A stretch of DNA of 6,819 bases, from assembly GCA_040755715.1 (NCBI GenBank), contig JBFLXN010000146.1:1-6819 (forward strand), given 5' to 3'. The notes under the pieces are model-generated. The model saw only the letters and a program-made list of their open reading frames with translations, searched no databases and was not told the origin of the DNA. Every line of letters begins with the position of its first letter. Position 1 is the stretch's first letter. The position numbers were made by a program, and so were the translations under genes. Shown here piece after piece: positions 1-6,819 of the stretch. The stretch comes from JBFLXN01 sp040755715 [NCBI: Candidatus Edwardsbacteria bacterium] (lineage in GTDB: Bacteria; Edwardsbacteria; AC1; JBFLXN01).

Positions 1-475
1 TGAAAATCTGCAAGTTATTCAATTCTGGAAATTTGTCTGATAATGACAAGAGGTCTCGCCAGCTTCTCTTCCAGTCTACAACAAGAAATGGTATCTTCTT
101 TTTTAGAAGTTGTAATGCTAATAAGAAAGCAAGGTTTGTCTTGCCTTCTCCGGTTATGCTGAAAATACCTATTTGTTTTATAAAATCTTCTTGCCTAAGA
201 TATAGTTGAGAAAGTTTTTTGTCATTGTAGATAATATCTCCGAGAAGAAATTCGCCAGAAGCTTGAAGTGCTGAAGGTGGTTGCAATAGAATAGGCTCAT
301 TTTGTAAAGGTGCTTTTCTGAGCAGTTTTTCAGCGATGATTTCAATGTCTAAAGCCAGGTCTTTTCTTCCTTTTTCGTCTTCGGCAAGATAACTATGCCA
401 GAGTTTGTTTGCCCTTTTGCCGATGATTGGCTTTAGTTTCTGGCAAGTCTCAAAGATTTCCATTGTTTTCATCAT
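1..475 (-). CDS. HerA/DUF87-type P-loop ATPase, N-terminal part (runs off the left edge)
   Basis: A minus-strand frame is open from ATG 475-473 to the window edge (158 codons, no stop). It contains a Walker A motif, SITGEGKT, about residues 106-113, preceded by a segment of the type 'GEFLLGD...LRQEDFIKQIGIF' and followed by a beta strand ending in a charged loop, 'FLVVDWKRSWRDLL'. This order (strand, 'TGxGKTN', helix, 'VxDWKxxxRDL') is typical of HerA-like/DUF87 ATPases of the FtsK-HerA superfamily, hexameric motors that move DNA or sometimes act in conjugation-like or defence systems. Walker B and the arginine finger lie outside the window, so the exact family is open. The start overlaps the end of the upstream gene (stop at 450) by 26 bases, implying translational coupling; in-frame ATGs at 472 and 463 are alternatives and none has a strong ribosome binding site. 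Family call fairly confident, role unknown. Confidence 0.75.
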   Translation of the reverse strand, partial: MMKTMEIFETCQKLKPIIGKRANKLWHSYLAEDEKGRKDLALDIEIIAEKLLRKAPLQNEPILLQPPSALQASGEFLLGDIIYNDKKLSQLYLRQEDFIKQIGIFSITGEGKTNLAFLLALQLLKKKIPFLVVDWKRSWRDLLSLSDKFPELNNLQIF

Positions 476-953
476 TTTCTAAGTCTTCTGTTAGATCAGA
501 AGCAAGTAGTTCTTGTCTTTTGCTTAAAGTCCAATATTCTGACAAGGCAGTCATTAGATATTTCTTCAAGAAGCTCATATCACGCCAACATTCCAAAAGC
601 TCTTGTCTTTTTTGTTTTTCTAAGTCAAAGACTTGAGTTTCAAGATGGTTTCTTCTTGGCATGAAAGCCAAGGTCATTTGTAGAGAATAATCTCTTTGGC
701 AATGGGTTCTGATTTGTTCAAGATAACCATCACATTTACAGATGTCTTCGTCTATGCTGTTAATTATATCTGAGTTTACTTTTAGTCTAAGGTTGATTTC
801 GTTGAAAAGTTCCTTTATTGTGGCTTTCAGAACTTTTGTTCTGTCCGAGAAGATTTTTTCTAAAGACTCTGATGGAATGTTTTCTTCAGAAGAAACAATG
901 GATTGAACAGATTGTTCTAAATCAGGATAAAAGCCTCTTTTCAGGGAATCCAT
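450..953 (-). CDS. hypothetical alpha-helical protein, 167 aa
   Basis: I do not recognise this protein. It is 167 residues, charged and almost free of Gly and Pro after the N-terminus, with long helix-forming stretches (residues 30-70 and 105-150) that suggest helical bundles or coiled coils. There is no signal peptide and no membrane segment. A 'CKC...C' cysteine group lies near residues 72-85 in the middle of the chain. The only plausible start is ATG 953-951; no Shine-Dalgarno sequence precedes it, unlike most genes here, and a small inverted repeat AATCC-TAAAT-GGATT straddles the start codon. Its end overlaps the start of the HerA-like ATPase gene, so the two are probably co-translated and may form a complex. 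Small helical partners of HerA-like motors are common, but that role here is inference from position alone. Confidence 0.75.
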   Translation of the reverse strand: MDSLKRGFYPDLEQSVQSIVSSEENIPSESLEKIFSDRTKVLKATIKELFNEINLRLKVNSDIINSIDEDICKCDGYLEQIRTHCQRDYSLQMTLAFMPRRNHLETQVFDLEKQKRQELLECWRDMSFLKKYLMTALSEYWTLSKRQELLASDLTEDLENDENNGNL

Positions 954-1095
954 TTAGGATTGAGTTTAGGGGAGATTAAAAGGGTTGTAGGCAAACTGTA
1001 GCGTGAGAAACAATAGAGAAGTTATGCGTATGGAGAGCGTTAAAAAAGGAACTATTCTAAAAAAGCAAGATTTTTATAAATTTGTTATACAGAGC

Positions 1096-1119
1096 AGAGC
1101 TTTGGAGAGACGAAGCTCT
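1096..1119. other. short hairpin after the XRE gene
   Basis: AGAGCTT and AAGCTCT form 7-bp arms with about ten bases between them, immediately after the stop of the XRE gene. No run of T follows on the minus strand, so it is not a clear intrinsic terminator; it might stabilise the 3' end of the mRNA. Apart from this hairpin I see nothing in the 169-base gap 954-1122, and no convincing promoter for the 450-953 gene. Confidence 0.3.
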
Positions 1120-1122
1120 TAA

Positions 1123-1461
1123 CTATCTTATACACCTTTCCACTGTTTTAGCAATTTCTAAGATAAGTTTTGCCTGTTTTATATTTCCTCTTTTTAAGAT
1201 AGCTGTGATTTCCGCTGTCAAGGTTTCCTTCATAGTTGCGGCTTCCTTCCCCTTGGGAAAAGCAAAAAGCTCAGACAGAGAAATCCCAAGTGCGTAGGCA
1301 ATCTTGGCTAATGTTGTATAAGTCGGGTTAGTCTCTGCTCTTTCAATCTCTCCAATATACTTTGGATTCATTTCCGCAAGTTCCGAGAGTTTTTCTTGTG
1401 TCATCTTTCTTGCTTTTCTCAGAGCTCTGACTCTTTTCCCTAAATTCTTTAACTGATCCAT
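1123..1461 (-). CDS. XRE-family helix-turn-helix transcriptional regulator
   Basis: This 112-residue protein has a classic Cro/C1-type HTH over residues 5-63: 'LGKRVRALRKARKMTQEKLSELA' (helices 1-2), 'NPKYIGEIERAETNPT' (recognition helix and turn) and 'LAKIAYALGISLSELF' (helices 4-5). The remaining 45 residues are helical and probably dimerise. ATG 1461-1459 was chosen as start: an AGGAGG (1472-1477 on the complement) lies 10 bases upstream. A TTG one codon earlier (1464-1462) sits 7 bases from the same site and is also possible. The gene points away from the lipoprotein genes, and a perfect palindrome lies in the shared promoter region, so it probably represses the divergent promoter and perhaps itself. 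Downstream, in the same direction, are the helical protein and the HerA-like ATPase, which it may also control. Family is secure; targets are inferred. Confidence 0.93.
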   Translation of the reverse strand: MDQLKNLGKRVRALRKARKMTQEKLSELAEMNPKYIGEIERAETNPTYTTLAKIAYALGISLSELFAFPKGKEAATMKETLTAEITAILKRGNIKQAKLILEIAKTVERCIR

Positions 1462-1520
1462 CAAAAGAAGCCCTCCTTTTTTAGATATAGGATAACAAAA
1501 AGAGAGCCTGAAAAAAACTT

Positions 1521-1547
1521 TTTATATACTCATTTTTCTCTTGACAA
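1521..1547 (-). promoter_or_regulatory. candidate promoter of the XRE gene
   Basis: On the minus strand TTGTCA (complement of 1542-1547) and TATAAA (complement of 1521-1526) are separated by 15 bases, a short spacer. The -35 box overlaps the -35 box of the divergent plus-strand promoter because TTGACAA is nearly self-complementary. The leader to the start codon is about 55 bases and contains the AGGAGG site. Confidence 0.4.
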
Positions 1548-1570
1548 ATACCGTCTAAAAATAGTATTTT
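1541..1570 (+). promoter_or_regulatory. candidate promoter of the lipoprotein genes
   Basis: A consensus -35 box TTGACA (1541-1546) is followed after 18 bases by TATTTT (1565-1570) as a weak -10; TAGTAT (1562-1567, spacer 15) is an alternative. Whichever is used lies inside the palindrome 1561-1577, so a protein bound there should block RNA polymerase. The transcript would have a leader of more than 200 bases before the first clear gene at 1789. Confidence 0.45.
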
Positions 1571-1577
1571 ATACTAT
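1561..1577. promoter_or_regulatory. palindromic operator, probably for the XRE regulator
   Basis: ATAGTAT-TTT-ATACTAT is a perfect 7-bp inverted repeat with a 3-base centre, a size typical for a dimer of an XRE-type repressor. It covers the -10 region of the plus-strand promoter and lies about 100 bases upstream of the XRE start. Binding by the neighbouring XRE protein is inferred from position only. Confidence 0.5.
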
Positions 1578-1625
1578 GAAGGTAGTTAAACCCGAGACAC
1601 TAACGGAAAGTCTTATTAGAAGAGA

Positions 1626-1703
1626 AAGGAGGTGATGCAAGCCTATTACAGTGGAACATTTATTTCTGAATACCTGTGCCCAAAGGCAATTGTTTTGCTG
1701 TAA
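1626..1703 (+). other. extended Shine-Dalgarno sequence and 22-codon leader ORF
   Basis: AAGGAGGTGAT matches the 16S anti-Shine-Dalgarno end over its full length, the strongest such site in the window, but no gene follows at the usual distance. ATG 1635-1637 overlaps the site (2 bases after AGGAGG) and opens a 22-codon frame (MQAYYSGTFISEYLCPKAIVLL) ending at TAA 1701-1703. The spacing is too short for efficient initiation. It may be a leader peptide, the remnant of a broken gene, or an unused site. The stretch 1578-1788 holds nothing else that I recognise. Confidence 0.25.
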
Positions 1704-1788
1704 GCAGGCAAGAAAGTAGGAAAAAAAGCAAAATAGAAAGCAAGAAAAAATATGGAAGATTAAAGATGGCACAGGAAAAGGAGGAAAA

Positions 1789-2250
1789 ATGCCTAGGAAG
1801 AGAATTATCTTGAAAAGAGCACTCACGCTATTCACTTTGATTCTCTCATTGATTCCATTGGGGTGTGAGGAGTATTTAGGGGAGTATTTAAGGGAACCTT
1901 ATAGTAGTACACCAACAACGCAGTACACGCCAACCGAGAAAATGGAGACTACCCTTCCAACTATAAATATTACTTCCCCTTCTAAAGATTCTCACTTCCC
2001 CTGGGGAGGAACAGCTGTTATCAGAGTGAATGCTTATGACGCGAGTGGCATTCAGAAAGTTACTTTCTCTGCTATCCCGGGGGGACATTCATATACAGCC
2101 TACAGTGAGCCCTGGGAGTGGTATTGGAGGCTTCCAGGAAGAAGCGGAGATGGAGGGGCACAGTGGTACAGTATAACAGCGACAGCTTATGACAATTACG
2201 GCAACTCACGGTCAACTTCAATTCACATTAGGGTTGGTAAAGAGTATTAG
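1789..2250 (+). CDS. secreted, probably lipid-anchored protein with an Ig-like domain
   Basis: The 153-residue product begins with a basic N-region (PRKR...KR), a hydrophobic stretch at residues 11-25 and Cys26 after 'LIPLG'. This resembles a signal peptidase II site, although Pro rather than Leu/Val/Ile stands at -3, so lipidation is likely but not certain. A Thr/Ser/Pro-rich linker (about 36-58) leads to one beta-sandwich domain (about 58-150) with the pattern 'PTINITSP...GGTAVIRVNAYDASGIQKVTF...WYSITATAYDNYGNSRSTSIHIRV', typical of bacterial Ig-like repeats (Big_9-like) found in surface proteins. A single such domain probably binds a partner or a polysaccharide at the cell surface. AGGAGG at 1779-1784 precedes the ATG by 4 bases. 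It lies downstream of the operator-controlled promoter and is followed 153 bases later by a second lipoprotein, probably in one transcription unit. Confidence 0.85.
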   Translation: MPRKRIILKRALTLFTLILSLIPLGCEEYLGEYLREPYSSTPTTQYTPTEKMETTLPTINITSPSKDSHFPWGGTAVIRVNAYDASGIQKVTFSAIPGGHSYTAYSEPWEWYWRLPGRSGDGGAQWYSITATAYDNYGNSRSTSIHIRVGKEY

Positions 2251-2403
2251 AGACAAAGTAAAGAGGGTAAGTTCTTTGGTTTTTGTTTTAGAAGAAAAAG
2301 TGGAGCTGGAGAGTGAAACCTTCACATTTTCTTATTTCCGAAAATTCACACTCAAGTTCTTCCGAAGAGTCTGTTAAAGCAGATAGGCAAGAAAGGAGAC
2401 CAT

Positions 2404-2862
2404 ATGAAACACATAGGATTTCTTGCGGCGACTGTTCTTATAATACTGCAGGGTTGTGCTGGGGTCTTGGAACAATTTGAAACATCATCTACTGGGCGTT
2501 CAGCCGAAATGGAACATGACGCTAGAATAGCAAATGTTAATGCGAGTCGGGAAGTAACATATACCGTCGCTTTATCCACGATTCAAGAATATGGATTTCC
2601 CGTCGAGAGTGCAAGCGAGACAGGAGTGATTGTGACCGGCTGGGCTAATGCTCCTATTCTTGGTGGAGGAGGAGAATGGAAGGTAACGATTACGATTGGT
2701 CCCACATGTAACGGTTCAATGCTCAGTCTAGTAGGCACCCACCGAGAGACAGGATGGGATGGCACAATGCAGGTTAAAACGATAGGCAGGTGGGATAGTT
2801 ACTTACTGGATAAACTGGAAAAGATAAAGAATACAATAAAAAGAAGAGCAGAAGGTCACTAG
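2404..2862 (+). CDS. predicted lipoprotein, 152 aa, function unknown
   Basis: The product starts with a short signal peptide and a good lipobox, L15-Q16-G17-C18, so mature Cys18 should be lipidated; Ala at +2 fits outer-membrane retention in a diderm. After a polar linker, residues 48-125 show an alpha/beta pattern: helix 'VTYTVALSTIQEYGFPVESA', strand 'TGVIVTGWAN', and 'GGGGEWKVTITIGP...GSMLSLVGTHRE'. Helix, then 'G(F/V)xVxxxSxxTGVIxT', then antiparallel strands is a layout found in many small envelope lipoproteins and recalls the helix-grip domains of BamC, but I cannot assign a family. The C-terminus is a basic amphipathic helix. AAGGAGA at 2393-2399 precedes the ATG at good spacing. It probably shares a transcript with the Ig-like lipoprotein and ends before the hairpin at 2967. 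The 153-base gap 2251-2403 shows nothing more than this ribosome binding site. Confidence 0.85.
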   Translation: MKHIGFLAATVLIILQGCAGVLEQFETSSTGRSAEMEHDARIANVNASREVTYTVALSTIQEYGFPVESASETGVIVTGWANAPILGGGGEWKVTITIGPTCNGSMLSLVGTHRETGWDGTMQVKTIGRWDSYLLDKLEKIKNTIKRRAEGH

Positions 2863-2966
2863 TGCGTGTTACTAATTCTATCGCTTGCAGGCAGGGCAGT
2901 TTCAAGATGTGGAGAAGATGGTGGTTGTTAGGTGAGCAAGGTTTGGCAAGATTTGTGAGGAAAAGG

Positions 2967-2994
2967 AAAGAGCCGTCGGCGACGACGGCTCTTT
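2967..2994. terminator. bidirectional intrinsic terminator with a GNRA tetraloop
   Basis: AAAGAGCCGTCG and CGACGGCTCTTT form a perfect 12-bp stem closed by the loop GCGA, a stable GNRA tetraloop. The stem ends in A/T pairs, which give a short T run on either strand (CTTTT on plus, CTTT on minus). It lies between the converging lipoprotein genes (end 2862) and the minus-strand block (last stop 3072), so it can end both transcripts. I see no gene in 2863-3071. Confidence 0.9.
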
Positions 2995-3071
2995 TCACAT
3001 AAATCTTGAGGCTATATCATGGATTTCTTTTAGTCTCCAAATGGATTTGAAAAAGACAGGGCTAAAGAAGT

Positions 3072-3356
3072 TTAGCTGATTTTCCAGCAGATGAAAGTTT
3101 GAGTATCAGCTATGACACCAGCATACTTCTCACGCAATCCCTTCATCACAAAATTACCAATTTGTTCTATGCTGTGTGAATTCACGAGCAGGACACAGTC
3201 GAAATACCCTCCACAGGCAAGCGCAAGTTCTACTTTTGGCTCAGAAGTTGATTGCCCATAATCCTGGCAAATTTCCTTTACGTCTTTGTTCATCTGTGGT
3301 AAGTTTTGGGAATGCGCTTTCAAGAACACTATTGCGTAGGTGTTTGTGTTTTTCAT
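3072..3356 (-). CDS. stand-alone Lrp/AsnC-type ligand-binding (RAM) domain protein
   Basis: The 94-residue product matches the C-terminal effector-binding domain of Lrp/AsnC regulators without any HTH: strand 'TYAIVFLKA' (6-14), helix (20-33), strand 'KVELALACGGYFDCVLLV' (41-58) with the characteristic G-x-(Y/F)-D turn at 50-53, helix 'SIEQIGNFVMKGLRE' (62-76) and last strand 'AGVIADTQTFICWKI' with the GVxxTxT-like pattern. Such domains form a ferredoxin-like alpha/beta dimer that can bind amino acids at the subunit interface. ATG 3356-3354 was chosen because it overlaps the TAA of the metallopeptidase-like gene (TAATG) and is preceded by a run of AGG triplets; a GTG at 3410 in the same frame would add 18 residues lying inside the upstream gene and is unlikely. 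The coupling suggests it senses a small molecule for, or binds to, the peptidase-like protein. It is the last gene before the terminator. Confidence 0.82.
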   Translation of the reverse strand: MKNTNTYAIVFLKAHSQNLPQMNKDVKEICQDYGQSTSEPKVELALACGGYFDCVLLVNSHSIEQIGNFVMKGLREKYAGVIADTQTFICWKIS

Positions 3357-4939
3357 TAGCCTCCTCCTCGGGTTATGGTAGAAAGCGCGCCACTCAAAGC
3401 TAGGCGCCACCCGATGTGCCCTGACATTTCTTCCTTTCGGTCAGTGTACAATTCCTTCCACCAAAGGGCATTAATTATTCTGTCTATGCTGACAGAATCT
3501 CCAAAGAATACTGTGCCTGTTTTAAGCTGACCCCATACGCTTTGGAGTTTTTCTAACCATACTTTCTCTCCTTCCTCCTTAATCTTTTTCCAACAAGTAT
3601 CTGTCATTGTGTCAGACAATGTTTCACACGCACGAACGAAAAGATTGAAATTTTGGTTTAGCCAGAAGGCAAGACTGCGGCACGCAGGGTCGTTGTCTGC
3701 TTCAATATGGGAAAAGCGTTTTTTCAACTCTTGAGTCTGCTTTTTGATATCGTCTGGGATACGCTGAAAACCTCCACTCTCCCGAAGAAGTCTTAGCATT
3801 AACTCCCTTCTAACACACGGTGGGGGATGGGTTACAAGGGCTCCTGGAAGTCTGACGAGGCTAATAGTCGCAGTTTGCCATGCACTTGGTCTGTTCAGGA
3901 ATGCCCAAAGGTAAGCTGGTCCCAGGAGGACTGTAGCACACACATCGGCAAGAAACTCACCAGTCCATCGCAGAGCAGAATCAGCAAAAGCTTTTTCAAA
4001 AATCCGGAAGTGACAGTCTTCCAGAAAATGTCCGTAATGTTCTATTCCACGCCCCATCCAGTCCTGAGACTCTTTACGGACGGTTCTGAAGAAGTCAGTA
4101 AGGCTGGTGAGAATCTGGGTATAAGATTCTAGCAAAAGCAGGAAGTTGGAACCAAGCAATTTCTTAATATCTGATAGAATCGTATCCTCGGTTCGCTCAC
4201 AAGAATTTCTATTTTCCTTTAAATAATCGCAAGCCGCTTTGAGCAAATATTCTATTCTGTGAAAATGCTCGTGTGCGATAGCCGGACAGTAGCGAATCTG
4301 AGCCGGAGTCCATCTCGGAAGGGTTATCCAAGACATCGTCAAGACCCACTCCATAGTTAATTTCTGCAGGTCTACTGGCAGTTGCCAAGGAAATGGTTGA
4401 AGTGTATACCTCTCAAATGCTGACACAGCCAATATCGGAGGAATACTACGAAGTCGACCAAAGAATGCCGAGACCCTGTTGTGTAACCAGCAATTGAGGG
4501 TTTCGATTGATTGTATGGCTTCAGCAAAATCGGGATGAACTTCCCCCAGTGGGAACGAATGAACCAAGGCGTTTCCCGCCAACTTTGGACTTCTCGCTCT
4601 TCTGGAGACTAATTCAGTCGTATAGTTCTGCATCATAATCGGCATTAATCTCAGAAGACTGGTCGTCCGCAGTAGATGGTTGAAATCTCCTGACCTCAGG
4701 TCACTTTCTTCTCTGTCAAAGTAGACATTCAAGTATTCTCGGACACAGTTAGCCCAAGTCTCTCCGTAAAGTATAAGTGGGTTCTTTGTCTCAGAGTTTG
4801 CTAAAGTCTTTGATACGATCCCCACATATTGAAGTTCAGCGACAAGAAATTGTTTTGCTTCTTCTGCGAATAGCTGTATCTCCTTTTCAATAGAGGATTT
4901 CCATCCTAAACTCTCCTGTGCTGCCACACTGTTTCCCAT
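3356..4939 (-). CDS. M48-like putative zinc metallopeptidase, 527 aa
   Basis: Three motifs appear in gluzincin order (numbering from ATG 4939): HEHFH at 223-227, a zinc-site HExxH; 'GEFLADVCA' at 327-335, where E328 would be the third zinc ligand as in the ExxxD helix of M48 enzymes; and 'THPPPCVRREL' at 370-380, like the THPPxxxR segment of HtpX/M48 proteins. About 100 residues separate HExxH from the third ligand, more than usual, so the core carries an insertion. The long N-terminal part is helical, with no signal peptide; hydrophobic stretches near 'PILAVSAFERY' and 'ATVLLGPAYLWAFL' look buried rather than membrane-spanning, so a cytoplasmic enzyme is likely. TTG 4954 is a longer alternative start, but it overlaps the GGAG that lies 9 bases before ATG 4939, so the ATG is preferred. 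It follows a winged-helix gene by 26 bases and is coupled to a RAM-domain gene, suggesting a ligand- and regulator-controlled protease. Substrate unknown. Confidence 0.75.
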   Translation of the reverse strand: MGNSVAAQESLGWKSSIEKEIQLFAEEAKQFLVAELQYVGIVSKTLANSETKNPLILYGETWANCVREYLNVYFDREESDLRSGDFNHLLRTTSLLRLMPIMMQNYTTELVSRRARSPKLAGNALVHSFPLGEVHPDFAEAIQSIETLNCWLHNRVSAFFGRLRSIPPILAVSAFERYTLQPFPWQLPVDLQKLTMEWVLTMSWITLPRWTPAQIRYCPAIAHEHFHRIEYLLKAACDYLKENRNSCERTEDTILSDIKKLLGSNFLLLLESYTQILTSLTDFFRTVRKESQDWMGRGIEHYGHFLEDCHFRIFEKAFADSALRWTGEFLADVCATVLLGPAYLWAFLNRPSAWQTATISLVRLPGALVTHPPPCVRRELMLRLLRESGGFQRIPDDIKKQTQELKKRFSHIEADNDPACRSLAFWLNQNFNLFVRACETLSDTMTDTCWKKIKEEGEKVWLEKLQSVWGQLKTGTVFFGDSVSIDRIINALWWKELYTDRKEEMSGHIGWRLALSGALSTITRGGG

Positions 4940-4945
4940 ACAGTG
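4927..4945 (-). promoter_or_regulatory. inverted repeat around the start codon of the peptidase-like gene
   Basis: CACTGT and ACAGTG are perfect 6-bp arms with a 7-base spacer that contains the ATG (complement of 4937-4939). In mRNA the start codon would sit in the loop, just downstream of GGAG. It could tune initiation or be an operator half-site pair; either role is inferred from position. Confidence 0.3.
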
Positions 4946-4965
4946 AAACTCCAAAAGATAATGTC

Positions 4966-5331
4966 TTACTGTATATAGTAAACGTTTTTTTGTTCTTTAG
5001 TCTCAACTCTAAAATCCCCTTTTTCTTTCAGTCCAGACAGGTCCTTAAGGACTTGAGAGCGCATCGATGCCGGGTACTGGTCCAGAATTTCTTGCTCTTC
5101 TGCTTTTCCACCACGAGATCTTACAAAATCAACGATAGAATCCACCCTAGTTGGAGAAGTTCTATAGAACAATCTGTCTTGTCTTAGAGCATCTGCGACC
5201 GCAGGACCGTAGAGTTCTCTTAGTTCCTCCAACGAAGGAACAATGCTCTCTGTAATGATTTCCTCGATAGTCGTGTATTTTAGATCTGGAAGCGGAAACC
5301 TAAGTTCCTCAACGCGTTTTTGTTCCTGCAT
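4966..5331 (-). CDS. small winged-helix protein, 121 aa
   Basis: The N-terminal half (1-60) is helical, with 'TIEEIITESIVPSLEELRELYGPAVADALRQDRLFY', and may be a dimerisation or partner-binding region. Residues 62-121 read as a winged helix: helix 1 'RVDSIVDFVRSRGG', helix 2 'EEQEILDQYP', helix 3 'MRSQVLKDLSGLKEKG', and a beta wing 'DFRVETKEQKNVYYIQ' that ends the protein. Such domains bind DNA or, less often, protein. A strong ribosome binding site (AAGGAGGTG, 7 bases from ATG 5331-5329) precedes it. Its stop is 26 bases upstream of the metallopeptidase-like gene, so the two are almost certainly co-transcribed; a pairing of a DNA-binding protein with a peptidase recalls regulator/protease switches such as ImmR/ImmA, although neither sequence belongs to those families. 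The specific role is unknown. Confidence 0.75.
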   Translation of the reverse strand: MQEQKRVEELRFPLPDLKYTTIEEIITESIVPSLEELRELYGPAVADALRQDRLFYRTSPTRVDSIVDFVRSRGGKAEEQEILDQYPASMRSQVLKDLSGLKEKGDFRVETKEQKNVYYIQ

Positions 5332-5361
5332 TTCTTCACCTCCTTATACAGTTTCTTTTTC

Positions 5362-5437
5362 TTAACTATATAAATTTTAGTATCAGATAGCTATATTTTC
5401 TTCCATTGATAGTTATTCTCCGAAAATCAAACTATCA
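5362..5437 (-). promoter_or_regulatory. cluster of AACTAT/ATAGTT boxes between two winged-helix genes
   Basis: TGATAGTT (5407-5414) and AACTATCA (5430-5437) form an 8-bp inverted repeat across the stop codon of the upstream gene. Further copies of the core follow towards the next gene: ATAGCTAT (5387-5394, self-complementary) and TTAACTATAT (5362-5371), whose complement contains TATAGT, a possible -10 box without a clear -35. The 81-base gap therefore may hold an operator array or a weak regulated promoter. No terminator is visible. Confidence 0.3.
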
Positions 5438-6006
5438 GGTATTTGATATGAATCCAAACCATTTTCATAAAGTTCTTTGATGATTAGCTTGTCTCTTTGC
5501 CATAACTCTCGATTGATTTTCACGCGTTCTTTAATGATTGATAAGTACTTATTTTCTATTAATTTTTGAATCCTTTCTCGCAATTCTTTTGTGTCATAAC
5601 TAATACCAGTTAATTTTTTTATTTTTGCCTTGAATCTGTTAAGCCCAGTCGAATTTGTCCCCTTCAGATAGCTGCCCCTATCACTTAGATAATCCACAAT
5701 TAACAATAACTGGGCATCTCTCTTTCCCATCTTGGCAAAACATTTGTAAATCTTTAGCGTTCCTTTTCTCCGCGAGCCTGTCAATATGTTTCTTTTGAGC
5801 AGAGCTTTTTCCATTTGCTCTATCGCAGGTCGCGTCCTCTTCAATAACTTCGCAAGTTCATCAAGACAAGGATAAATACTTTCTTGATTGATATATTTCA
5901 TTGCCTCAGTCAAACATTTGGCTGCACGTTCCGGCACAGTGTTTCTTCTATGCACATCCAGAAAATGAATTGCTTTGCCTAACCTTATCTTGGATTCTCT
6001 TGGCAT
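5413..6006 (-). CDS. basic protein with probable tandem winged-helix domains, 197 aa
   Basis: I do not recognise the family. The 197-residue protein is rich in Lys and Arg. Residues about 33-90 look like a winged helix: 'AMKYINQESIYPCLDELAKLLKRTRPAIEQMEKALLKRNILTG', with 'RPAIEQMEKALLKRN' as recognition helix, then a basic wing 'SRRKGTLKIYK'. Residues about 98-165 show a second helix-helix-helix-strand unit, 'DAQLLLIVDYLSDRG...DTKELRERIQKLIENKYLSIIKERVKI'. Two such domains in a small basic protein suit a transcription factor or the initiator of a mobile element. AAGGA lies 10 bases before ATG 6006-6004. A good promoter stands upstream with a leader of about 100 bases, and the next gene follows after 81 bases, so this is the first gene of the peptidase-containing operon. 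It is not a tyrosine integrase: no R...HxxR...Y pattern is present. Confidence 0.7.
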   Translation of the reverse strand: MPRESKIRLGKAIHFLDVHRRNTVPERAAKCLTEAMKYINQESIYPCLDELAKLLKRTRPAIEQMEKALLKRNILTGSRRKGTLKIYKCFAKMGKRDAQLLLIVDYLSDRGSYLKGTNSTGLNRFKAKIKKLTGISYDTKELRERIQKLIENKYLSIIKERVKINRELWQRDKLIIKELYENGLDSYQIPDSLIFGE

Positions 6007-6260: not shown

Positions 6261-6319
6261 AAATTCAAGGATTTAGACCAACTTTCACAATTTTCAATTT
6301 GTTAGCAAAAACTATTTTT

Positions 6320-6362
6320 CTGATTAAGAGTCAGCTGCTCTACCAAACTGAGCTAATGGCGC
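6320..6362 (-). pseudogene. 5' half of tRNA-Lys(CTT), broken in the anticodon stem
   Basis: Reading the complement from 6362: acceptor strand GCGCCAT, TA, D-stem GCTC/GAGC around AGTTTGGTA, anticodon stem GCTGA and loop CTCTTAA with anticodon CTT, then TCAG. Homology stops there; the next bases (AAAAATAG...) no longer pair and no T-arm or 3' acceptor strand (ATGGCGC) is found in the following 200 bases. All remaining positions are canonical, so the break looks recent. The junction in the anticodon stem-loop, next to the repeat cluster at 6174-6260, suits an integration site: the anticodon region of tRNA genes is a common crossover site. If so, the mobile DNA lies to the left of 6320 and the intact tRNA, or the missing half, lies at its other end outside this window. 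Confidence 0.8.
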
Positions 6363-6449: not shown

Positions 6450-6491
6450 TTTCTGTTTGGCGTCCCCGGCGTGAGCCTAACACTTTAACCC

Positions 6492-6604
6492 TCTGCTCAC
6501 CCGCCTGCCACACGCCCAGTCCGACTTGAACGGACAACCTACTGCTTAGAAGGCAGTTGCTCTATCCCATTGAGCTATGGGCGCCAGGCAGGCGGGTGAG
6601 CAGA
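6492..6604. repeat. 18-bp perfect inverted repeat enclosing the inner tRNA
   Basis: TCTGCTCACCCGCCTGCC (6492-6509) is the exact reverse complement of 6587-6604. Five base pairs are the anticodon stem of the outer tRNA; the other 13 (TCACCCGCCTGCC) are GC-rich and REP-like. Only two bases on each side separate the stem from the inner tRNA acceptor stem, counting the discriminator base. In RNA the inner cloverleaf would sit on an 18-bp helix growing from the outer tRNA body. Confidence 0.95.
6511..6584 (-). tRNA. tRNA-Arg (anticodon TCT), complete, nested inside another tRNA
   Basis: The complement from 6584 folds into a full cloverleaf of 74 bases: acceptor GCGCCCA/TGGGCGT (7 pairs, G-T at the end), TA at 8-9, D-arm GCTC-AATGGGATA-GAGC, A26, anticodon stem ACTGC/GCAGT with loop CTTCTAA (anticodon TCT, reading AGA and by wobble AGG), variable AGGTT, T-arm GTCCG-TTCAAGT-CGGAC with the TTCRANY signature, discriminator G. 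CCA is not encoded and must be added after processing, whereas the decayed outer gene does encode CCA. No promoter fits in the few bases between it and the flanking helix, so it must be transcribed together with the outer tRNA from the promoter at 6648-6677 and then cut out, presumably by RNase P and a 3' nuclease. Confidence 0.95.
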
Positions 6605-6647
6605 TATTCTATCCTTTTGAGCTGCGGGGATAAGTATTTGAATATAA

Positions 6648-6677
6648 ATTATACTAAAATTCTCTTTTTAAAGTCAA
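6648..6677 (-). promoter_or_regulatory. promoter of the nested tRNA locus
   Basis: On the minus strand TTGACT (complement of 6672-6677) and a consensus TATAAT (complement of 6648-6653) lie 18 bases apart. The -10 box ends 16 bases before the outer tRNA, so transcription should begin about ten bases upstream of its first base. The promoter is intact although the outer tRNA is decayed. Confidence 0.8.
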
Positions 6678-6693
6678 TATAAATCTGCCATTT

Positions 6694-6819
6694 TGTCATT
6701 TAAAATTCAAAAGTGAACTCTTTTTAGCGAATTTAAAGTTCAAAAGTGAACTCTTAAACTGCTATAATCTAACCCAAAAAAGGAGGGTTTGGATTATGGC
6801 AAAACAGTTGCATAAGAAA
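6694..6819 (+). mobile_element. left end of a probable IS481-like insertion sequence
   Basis: The element is inferred to begin at TGT 6694-6696, the terminal trinucleotide typical of IS481 ends. Inside it the 17-bp sequence TTCAAAAGTGAACTCTT occurs twice, at 6706-6722 and 6739-6755 (33-base step), as expected of tandem transposase-binding sites near an end. A promoter follows (TTCAAA 6739-6744, spacer 18, TATAAT 6763-6768), then AGGAGG (6781-6786) and a start codon. The right end is outside the window, so family and exact border are inferred. Confidence 0.5.
6796..6819 (+). CDS. start of a transposase-like gene (first 8 codons)
   Basis: ATG 6796-6798, 9 bases after AGGAGG, opens MAKQLHKK and continues past the right edge. 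The basic N-terminus and the preceding IS-like end suggest an IS481-type DDE transposase that begins with a helix-turn-helix domain. Eight residues cannot prove this; a ribosomal or other short basic start is possible. Confidence 0.45.

Follow-up and report, generated by a model that had tools for sequence, protein, structure and literature searches.

Few genes are as strongly conserved as those for tRNAs. Entry of mobile DNA into tRNA genes in a way that leaves a working tRNA is known, and the genomic islands and phages that integrate there usually bring a tRNA 3′ end and an integrase. Palindromic repeats within genes are known from the Rickettsia palindromic elements, for which we know of no tRNA cargo. 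SegB of phages T4 and T6 is a GIY-YIG homing endonuclease that cuts within tRNA genes and amplifies tRNA segments (PMC13096335, PMC2988022), and rRNA insertions in the CPR bacteria carry homing endonuclease genes and are located mostly at the tops or bases of stem-loops (PMC11270868). Here we describe a locus in which a complete tRNA gene is found inside the broken halves of another. It is located in a stretch of 6,819 nucleotides, hereafter the window, which covers positions 1 to 6,819 of contig JBFLXN010000146.1 from a Candidatus Edwardsbacteria assembly (GCA_040755715.1).

The inner gene at 6511–6584 (minus strand, like all parts of the nested locus given below) is an intact tRNA-Arg(TCT) according to ARAGORN, Rfam and its cloverleaf fold; it scores 67.9 bits with RF00005 against a cut-off of 29, and its CCA is not encoded. 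This tRNA is flanked by a left palindrome arm, TCACCCGCCTGCC (6587–6599), and a right arm, GGCAGGCGGGTGA (6497–6509), which pair with each other at all 13 positions. The palindrome continues directly into the anticodon stem of the outer tRNA, whose 5′ strand (6600–6604) and 3′ strand (6492–6496) form five out of five pairs, so that the inverted repeat forms a perfect 18-bp helix topped by the intact tRNA. The folding z of this strand is −5.35. The inner acceptor stem is joined to the helix by TG on the 5′ side and, on the 3′ side, by the discriminator G and a T; since these short linkers keep the stem apart from the helix, ordinary 5′ processing of the inner tRNA seems plausible from the sequence. 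A putative sigma-70-type promoter, TTGACT-18-TATAAT (6648–6677, minus strand), is found 16 nt upstream of the outer tRNA start; the assignment is based on a consensus match at 11 of 12 positions, in a 570-base region with three promoter-like sites versus 1.2 in shuffled sequences.

The outer tRNA extends from 6631 to 6458, where GCCA at 6461–6458 closes its 3′ end. Its 5′ half (6605–6631) consists of the acceptor strand ATCCCCG and the D arm, and its 3′ half (6458–6491) consists of the variable loop, a decayed T arm, the acceptor strand CGGGGAC, G and CCA. Six of seven pairs are formed in the acceptor stem (6631–6625/6468–6462), three of four in the D stem and three of five in the T stem, and the T loop, TTAGGCT, has lost C56 and A58. 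The anticodon loop is replaced by the hairpin with the inner tRNA, and the outer anticodon is lost. The two flanks were given a cloverleaf-register score, which is built on general tRNA features but was composed after the site was known. Of 20000 dinucleotide-shuffled pairs of flanks, only 2 scored as high, as did 20 out of 20000 randomly chosen places in the window; this register test supports both halves, the 3′ one together with its pairing. For the 5′ half there is further support from the D-arm string AGCTCANNNGGATAGA, which occurs exactly twice, once in the inner and once in the outer tRNA, and which has three matches with up to two mismatches where 0.2 are expected, and from the isoacceptor comparison described below. 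The initial annotation had proposed a complete tRNA-Arg inside a second tRNA gene, and both this arrangement, which is beyond chance by the register test and the D-arm duplicate, and the coordinates and 13-bp helix given for it, which agree with the pairing check, were confirmed.

The same annotation had expected the outer halves to score as a tRNA when joined, and this expectation failed: ARAGORN calls no tRNA on the minus strand of the joined halves of the window. Each half alone has no Rfam tRNA match up to E = 10. In plain local similarity to a library of 144 tRNAs neither half is significant, shuffled sequences being as good in 19 of 200 cases for the 5′ half and in 182 of 200 for the 3′ half; three tRNA-Arg entries and one tRNA-Ala(tgc) tie as the best library match of the 5′ half. 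ARAGORN on joined halves was set aside as a proof of the outer tRNA, because it is weak either way, swapped-flank controls being called as well. Thus the flanks of the window are the halves of a loop-broken tRNA by the register test and the replaced anticodon loop, while they are not callable when joined: the outer shell is a decayed tRNA, and the nesting is supported whereas a functional double tRNA is not.

The two-shell layout, which the initial annotation suggested looking for in other genomes, was indeed found in the ultra-small Patescibacteria. A pattern in which GCCTGCC and GGCAGGC arms enclose a tRNA T loop, run on 379 Patescibacteria genomes, gave 13 rows representing 12 distinct loci in 12 genomes. 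In 11 of these loci, all but L053, ARAGORN detects an intact tRNA flanked by the arms. Judged by eye, the outer tRNA is broken in the anticodon loop in L049, L051, L052, L054, L055, L059, and L060, and in the D loop in L056, L057, and L058, while L050 is not assignable. The clearest case is L017/L058, where tRNA-Leu(CAA) is inserted in the D loop of tRNA-Leu(CAA) and the outer acceptor, anticodon and T stems are full. In a second, downstream case in L057, one tRNA-Ala(CGC) is nested in another, whose acceptor stem is full (GGGCCTA/TAGGTCC), and in L204 (G070) tRNA-Arg(TCT) is located in the D loop of another tRNA-Arg(TCT). L054 also harbors a perfect 52-bp tandem duplication (1580–1683) spanning the inner tRNA 3′ end, a palindrome arm and the outer 3′ half.

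Wider searches gave little beyond this set. A second arm pattern returned three rows, one of which, the second case of L057, was new as a pattern match, and order-level searches yielded no loci beyond those already found. As a control, the first pattern matched 23 stretches of viral contigs, none with a tRNA, and with two patterns no tRNA on a hairpin was found in viral contigs. As a further control, a stricter pattern applied to 84,980 genomes, one per species, gave ten loci, of which the only one with a tRNA belongs to Patescibacteria. When nested-site DNA was compared with plasmids and phages, none of the 20 records listed out of 105 and out of 829 spanned 80% of the query, and the listed matches are mainly to the inner tRNA.

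The flanks match the inner tRNA's own isoacceptor over the set. An earlier isoacceptor scan with wide flanks was confounded by neighboring tRNAs and was hence replaced by one with narrower flanks and a softer score, in which 11 nested loci and the window were permuted together. The alignment sum of the flanks with their own tRNAs is 319, versus a permuted mean of 199.4 (sd 18.9, highest 315), and none of 20000 permutations reaches it. The own isoacceptor comes first in 7 of these 12 loci without an ORF, including the window, where it ranks first of 12; it is not first in L050, L051, L056, L059, and L060. ARAGORN calls a tRNA from the joined outer halves in 3 of 13 cases (L049, L058 and the second case of L057), two of which carry mixed anticodons, and in 15 of 152 swapped-flank controls.

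Furthermore, a fuller form of the cassette is found in Patescibacteria, in which an outer 5′ half is followed by a GIY-YIG ORF and an intact tRNA, sometimes with an outer 3′ half and direct repeats. A search of 39 genomes with this ORF gave 56 matches at 30 loci in 21 genomes, and local tblastn recovered 26 matches in 25 of the 30 loci. In this first sample, 18 of the 26 matches have a tRNA within 600 nt, always on the same strand, and 13 stop 3–53 nt ahead of an intact same-strand tRNA. A second draw of 153 genomes, overlapping the first, had matches in 94, from which 27 further loci, the best-scoring matches and not a random set, were examined: an intact tRNA follows within 84 nt downstream in 11, and the tRNAs within 600 nt are on the same strand in 25 cases and on the opposite strand in none. 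There is no intact tRNA directly downstream of the remaining matches, 13 of 26 and 16 of 27, respectively. As a small control, four GIY-YIG relatives in two non-Patescibacteria genomes have no tRNA within 600 nt.

Several of the GIY-YIG loci have pieces of the same tRNA upstream, with inserts in their loops, and some also have 3′ pieces downstream. The flanks match the own tRNA better than in any of 20000 permutations in both samples, the own tRNA being first in 10 of 14 and 8 of 11 cases, respectively. Direct repeats consisting of the outer anticodon arm and a palindrome flank the ORF and tRNA in four of 14 tested loci (L111, L115, L135, and L136) and in L096. Most breaks are in loops: of the 14 insert-bearing breaks at 13 loci, five affect the D loop or its edge, four the anticodon arm and three the T arm around its loop, with two elsewhere (L167 and L181), and the inserts of the twelve breaks in the three arms are self-paired over 0.41–0.82 of their length. 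Either the insertion machinery prefers hairpin loops, or the tRNAs had to fold when they were hit. In the window, no GIY-YIG gene is present among the nine ORFs searched, and the outer 5′ half is separated from the intact tRNA only by the 13-base arm and a 2-base linker, with no GIY-YIG ORF.

Several states of one site are found among relatives of the L017 locus. A plain tRNA-Leu is present in L094, a GIY-YIG form in L095 and the nested form in L017, and an upstream gene and two tRNA-Met genes are in an order common to these three, L096 being only partly syntenic. L095 has a displaced 5′ half whose anticodon arm contains the palindrome CTGCCTGCCGGCAGGCAGG, and then the GIY-YIG ORF and a whole tRNA-Leu. 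In L096, the 5′ half is followed by hairpins, the GIY-YIG ORF and a whole tRNA-Leu, after which the hairpins are repeated (80 bp, 96% identical) ahead of a 3′ half that is 94% identical to the L017 outer tRNA over 50 nt. Pfam confirms GIY-YIG in the ORFs of both L095 and L096. The GIY-YIG frame of L095 (456–818) is open upstream through the displaced tRNA half and the palindrome.

Which of the two tRNAs is older can be told in one case. With the D loop left out, the uninterrupted tRNA-Arg(TCT) of L208 matches the outer tRNA of L204 at 15 of 15 and 48 of 52 positions, versus 11 of 15 and 42 of 52 for the inner one. L208 is from a different genome than L204, and it also adjoins tRNA-Leu(CAG), but on the opposite side. 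Because the outer and not the inner tRNA of L204 resembles the uninterrupted gene, the outer one is the older resident and the inner tRNA-Arg the newcomer. In G001, a genome of unstated completeness, the inner tRNA-Leu(CAA) is the sole whole copy among 42 tRNA matches, and ARAGORN yields a shortened tRNA call from its own outer shell. The same genome (contig C67) has an ARAGORN tRNA with a four-base anticodon (tcta) beside tRNA-Phe at 1404–1476 of L025, with 39.8 bits in Rfam.

These observations are probably best explained by an old tRNA-replacement insertion, in which homing SegB-like GIY-YIG cassettes bring a replacement tRNA and the window is an old derivative without the ORF. The cassette, a palindromic hairpin with a complete tRNA, would enter a resident tRNA gene of the same isoacceptor, probably a tRNA-Arg at the window, in its anticodon loop. 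The insertion would break the resident, and the cell would survive as the substitute works under the resident's promoter; the inner tRNA would now be the functional copy, and the outer halves would decay. In this best reading of the window, the inner tRNA is thus likely the working copy and the outer halves a relic shell. The fuller cassettes seen in Patescibacteria have a small GIY-YIG endonuclease gene directly upstream of the replacement tRNA: this SegB-like enzyme may cut tRNA genes in uninterrupted alleles, and repair of the break from the cassette-bearing allele may copy the ORF and the intact tRNA in. Such homing between alleles would account for inner and outer tRNAs of the same isoacceptor, and the ORF would later have been lost in loci such as the window. 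Taken further, the GIY-YIG cassettes might act as a natural cleave-and-rescue gene drive, which destroys tRNA genes at their loops and brings an intact tRNA of the same isoacceptor as the antidote; the hairpins without an ORF would then be non-autonomous, with only the rescue tRNA as cargo, and tRNA genes across Patescibacteria would be exchanged bit by bit over many such rounds. We propose this extension tentatively, as somewhat short of an even chance.

The main rival, which we regard as rather unlikely, supposes that the palindromic repeats, which are abundant, enter tRNA loops alone and that a second tRNA flanked by the same repeat later recombines in, with no homing; only same-isoacceptor insertions would survive, every isoacceptor being encoded by one essential gene. 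It would fit the tRNA-less hairpins that occur in loops of displaced tRNA pieces, the recurrence of the GCCTGCC arm around Pro, Thr, Gly, Ala, Arg, and Leu tRNAs, and the five Leu isoacceptors found once each in G001. However, such a sequence of events leaves unexplained why intact tRNAs that have pieces of the same tRNA at their flanks are immediately preceded by GIY-YIG genes, and it does not account for the direct repeats either.

It is very improbable that a single precursor gives rise to both tRNAs, the outer one being formed when the hairpin and the inner tRNA are removed by splicing, even though some outer tRNAs look near-perfect by eye, such as that of L017 with full stems and the acceptor stem of the second L057 case. 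The window outer is decayed, 10 of 13 loci have an outer tRNA that is not callable, L017, L056, L057, and L204 have by eye lost the D loop, and the anticodons are equal wherever both are readable, which would make the outer tRNA redundant. Nor is there any Rfam intron family in the window, in agreement with the initial annotation, and a group I intron is ruled out, no Rfam match to such an intron being found inside the tRNA. Because the inner tRNA is complete, the gene is also neither a split nor a permuted tRNA, as had been said, the outer one being decayed. On the other hand, the suggestion of a functional tRNA class with special RNase P processing was not supported: the outer tRNA looks like a relic, and as the joined halves have no tRNA score, such a new class is not shown. 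The least probable explanation, an ordinary tRNA-Arg gene with flanks that arose by chance or through misassembly, could appeal to the missing Rfam score and non-significant plain similarity of the window outer halves and to the L017 record being a metagenome assembly, but a chance origin of the outer tRNA is ruled out by the register test (2 of 20000), and the D-arm duplicate and the recurrence with matching isoacceptors in other genomes also speak against it.

By its layout, palindrome core and isoacceptor rank, the window would belong to the Patescibacteria series as an old replacement insertion. The best match of its inner tRNA among 314 genomes is a tRNA-Arg(TCT) of G231, with 63 of 73 positions identical. 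This tRNA (L198, around 1399–1705) lies, by eye, between apparent outer halves GTCCCGG...CCGGGGC, with a palindrome near the outer T loop, and G231 also carries the nested tRNA-Ala of L059. An uninterrupted allele of the window's own locus was not found in the genomes searched here. Two window proteins had no match in 286 Patescibacteria genomes in a search run without a positive control, and window proteins gave nothing informative against viral contigs and plasmids.

The surroundings of the locus have features of their own. The 5′ half of a tRNA-Lys(CTT) at 6319–6362 (minus strand) reaches 22.6 bits in Rfam, which is under the cut-off. It is complete to the anticodon stem and then gives way to unrelated sequence, and along with the genes at 2–6006, most of which are on the minus strand, it may mark the end of an integrated element. 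The partial ORF at 2–475 (minus strand) matches HerA/DUF87 and CedD-like proteins, which hints at a DNA-transfer or mobile-element gene set. By eye, two plus-strand ORFs (1789–2250 and 2404–2862) begin like lipoproteins, and the first of them contains a bacterial Ig domain. A 25-nt direct repeat with AAAAGTGAACTCTT (6698–6722 and 6731–6755, 96%) is located directly upstream of an ATG at 6796 behind AGGAGG, and is a possible operator.

If the replacement reading is right, tRNA genes are repeatedly broken and replaced from within by tiny cassettes, in hosts that may keep one copy per isoacceptor, as seen in one genome for leucine only. This would be a new route of tRNA gene turnover, would account for the broken tRNA copies and small GIY-YIG genes beside Patescibacteria tRNAs, and would provide a natural cleave-and-rescue element that is testable in vitro. 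Among the titles and abstract openings listed in searches of open papers, we found no description of nested tRNAs or of GIY-YIG genes at Patescibacteria tRNAs, and to that extent the nesting of a whole tRNA within a broken one of its own isoacceptor has not been described.

The nested loci resemble tRNA-integrating islands and phages in that an element enters a tRNA gene and a working tRNA remains; unlike those, a whole substitute tRNA is found here between displaced halves, and no integrase was seen. Like the Rickettsia palindromic elements, they have palindromes inside genes. An interrupted tRNA body is shared with the intron-containing and split tRNA genes of archaea (PMC10714607) and with permuted tRNA genes (PMC3978253), but the interruption here contains a complete tRNA of the same isoacceptor. 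The CPR rRNA insertions are from the same bacterial group and likewise place homing endonuclease genes within RNA genes, whereas their host genes are rRNA genes and their enzymes mostly LAGLIDADG, with GIY-YIG called sparse and the word “tRNA” absent from the main text (PMC11270868). SegB differs in that it sits between phage tRNA genes (tRNA-Arg and tRNA-Ile), and the consulted parts of its descriptions contain no broken outer tRNA and no loop palindromes; the likeness, which is drawn from described behavior and not from sequence homology, is that of a small GIY-YIG gene inside a tRNA cluster (PMC13096335, PMC2988022).
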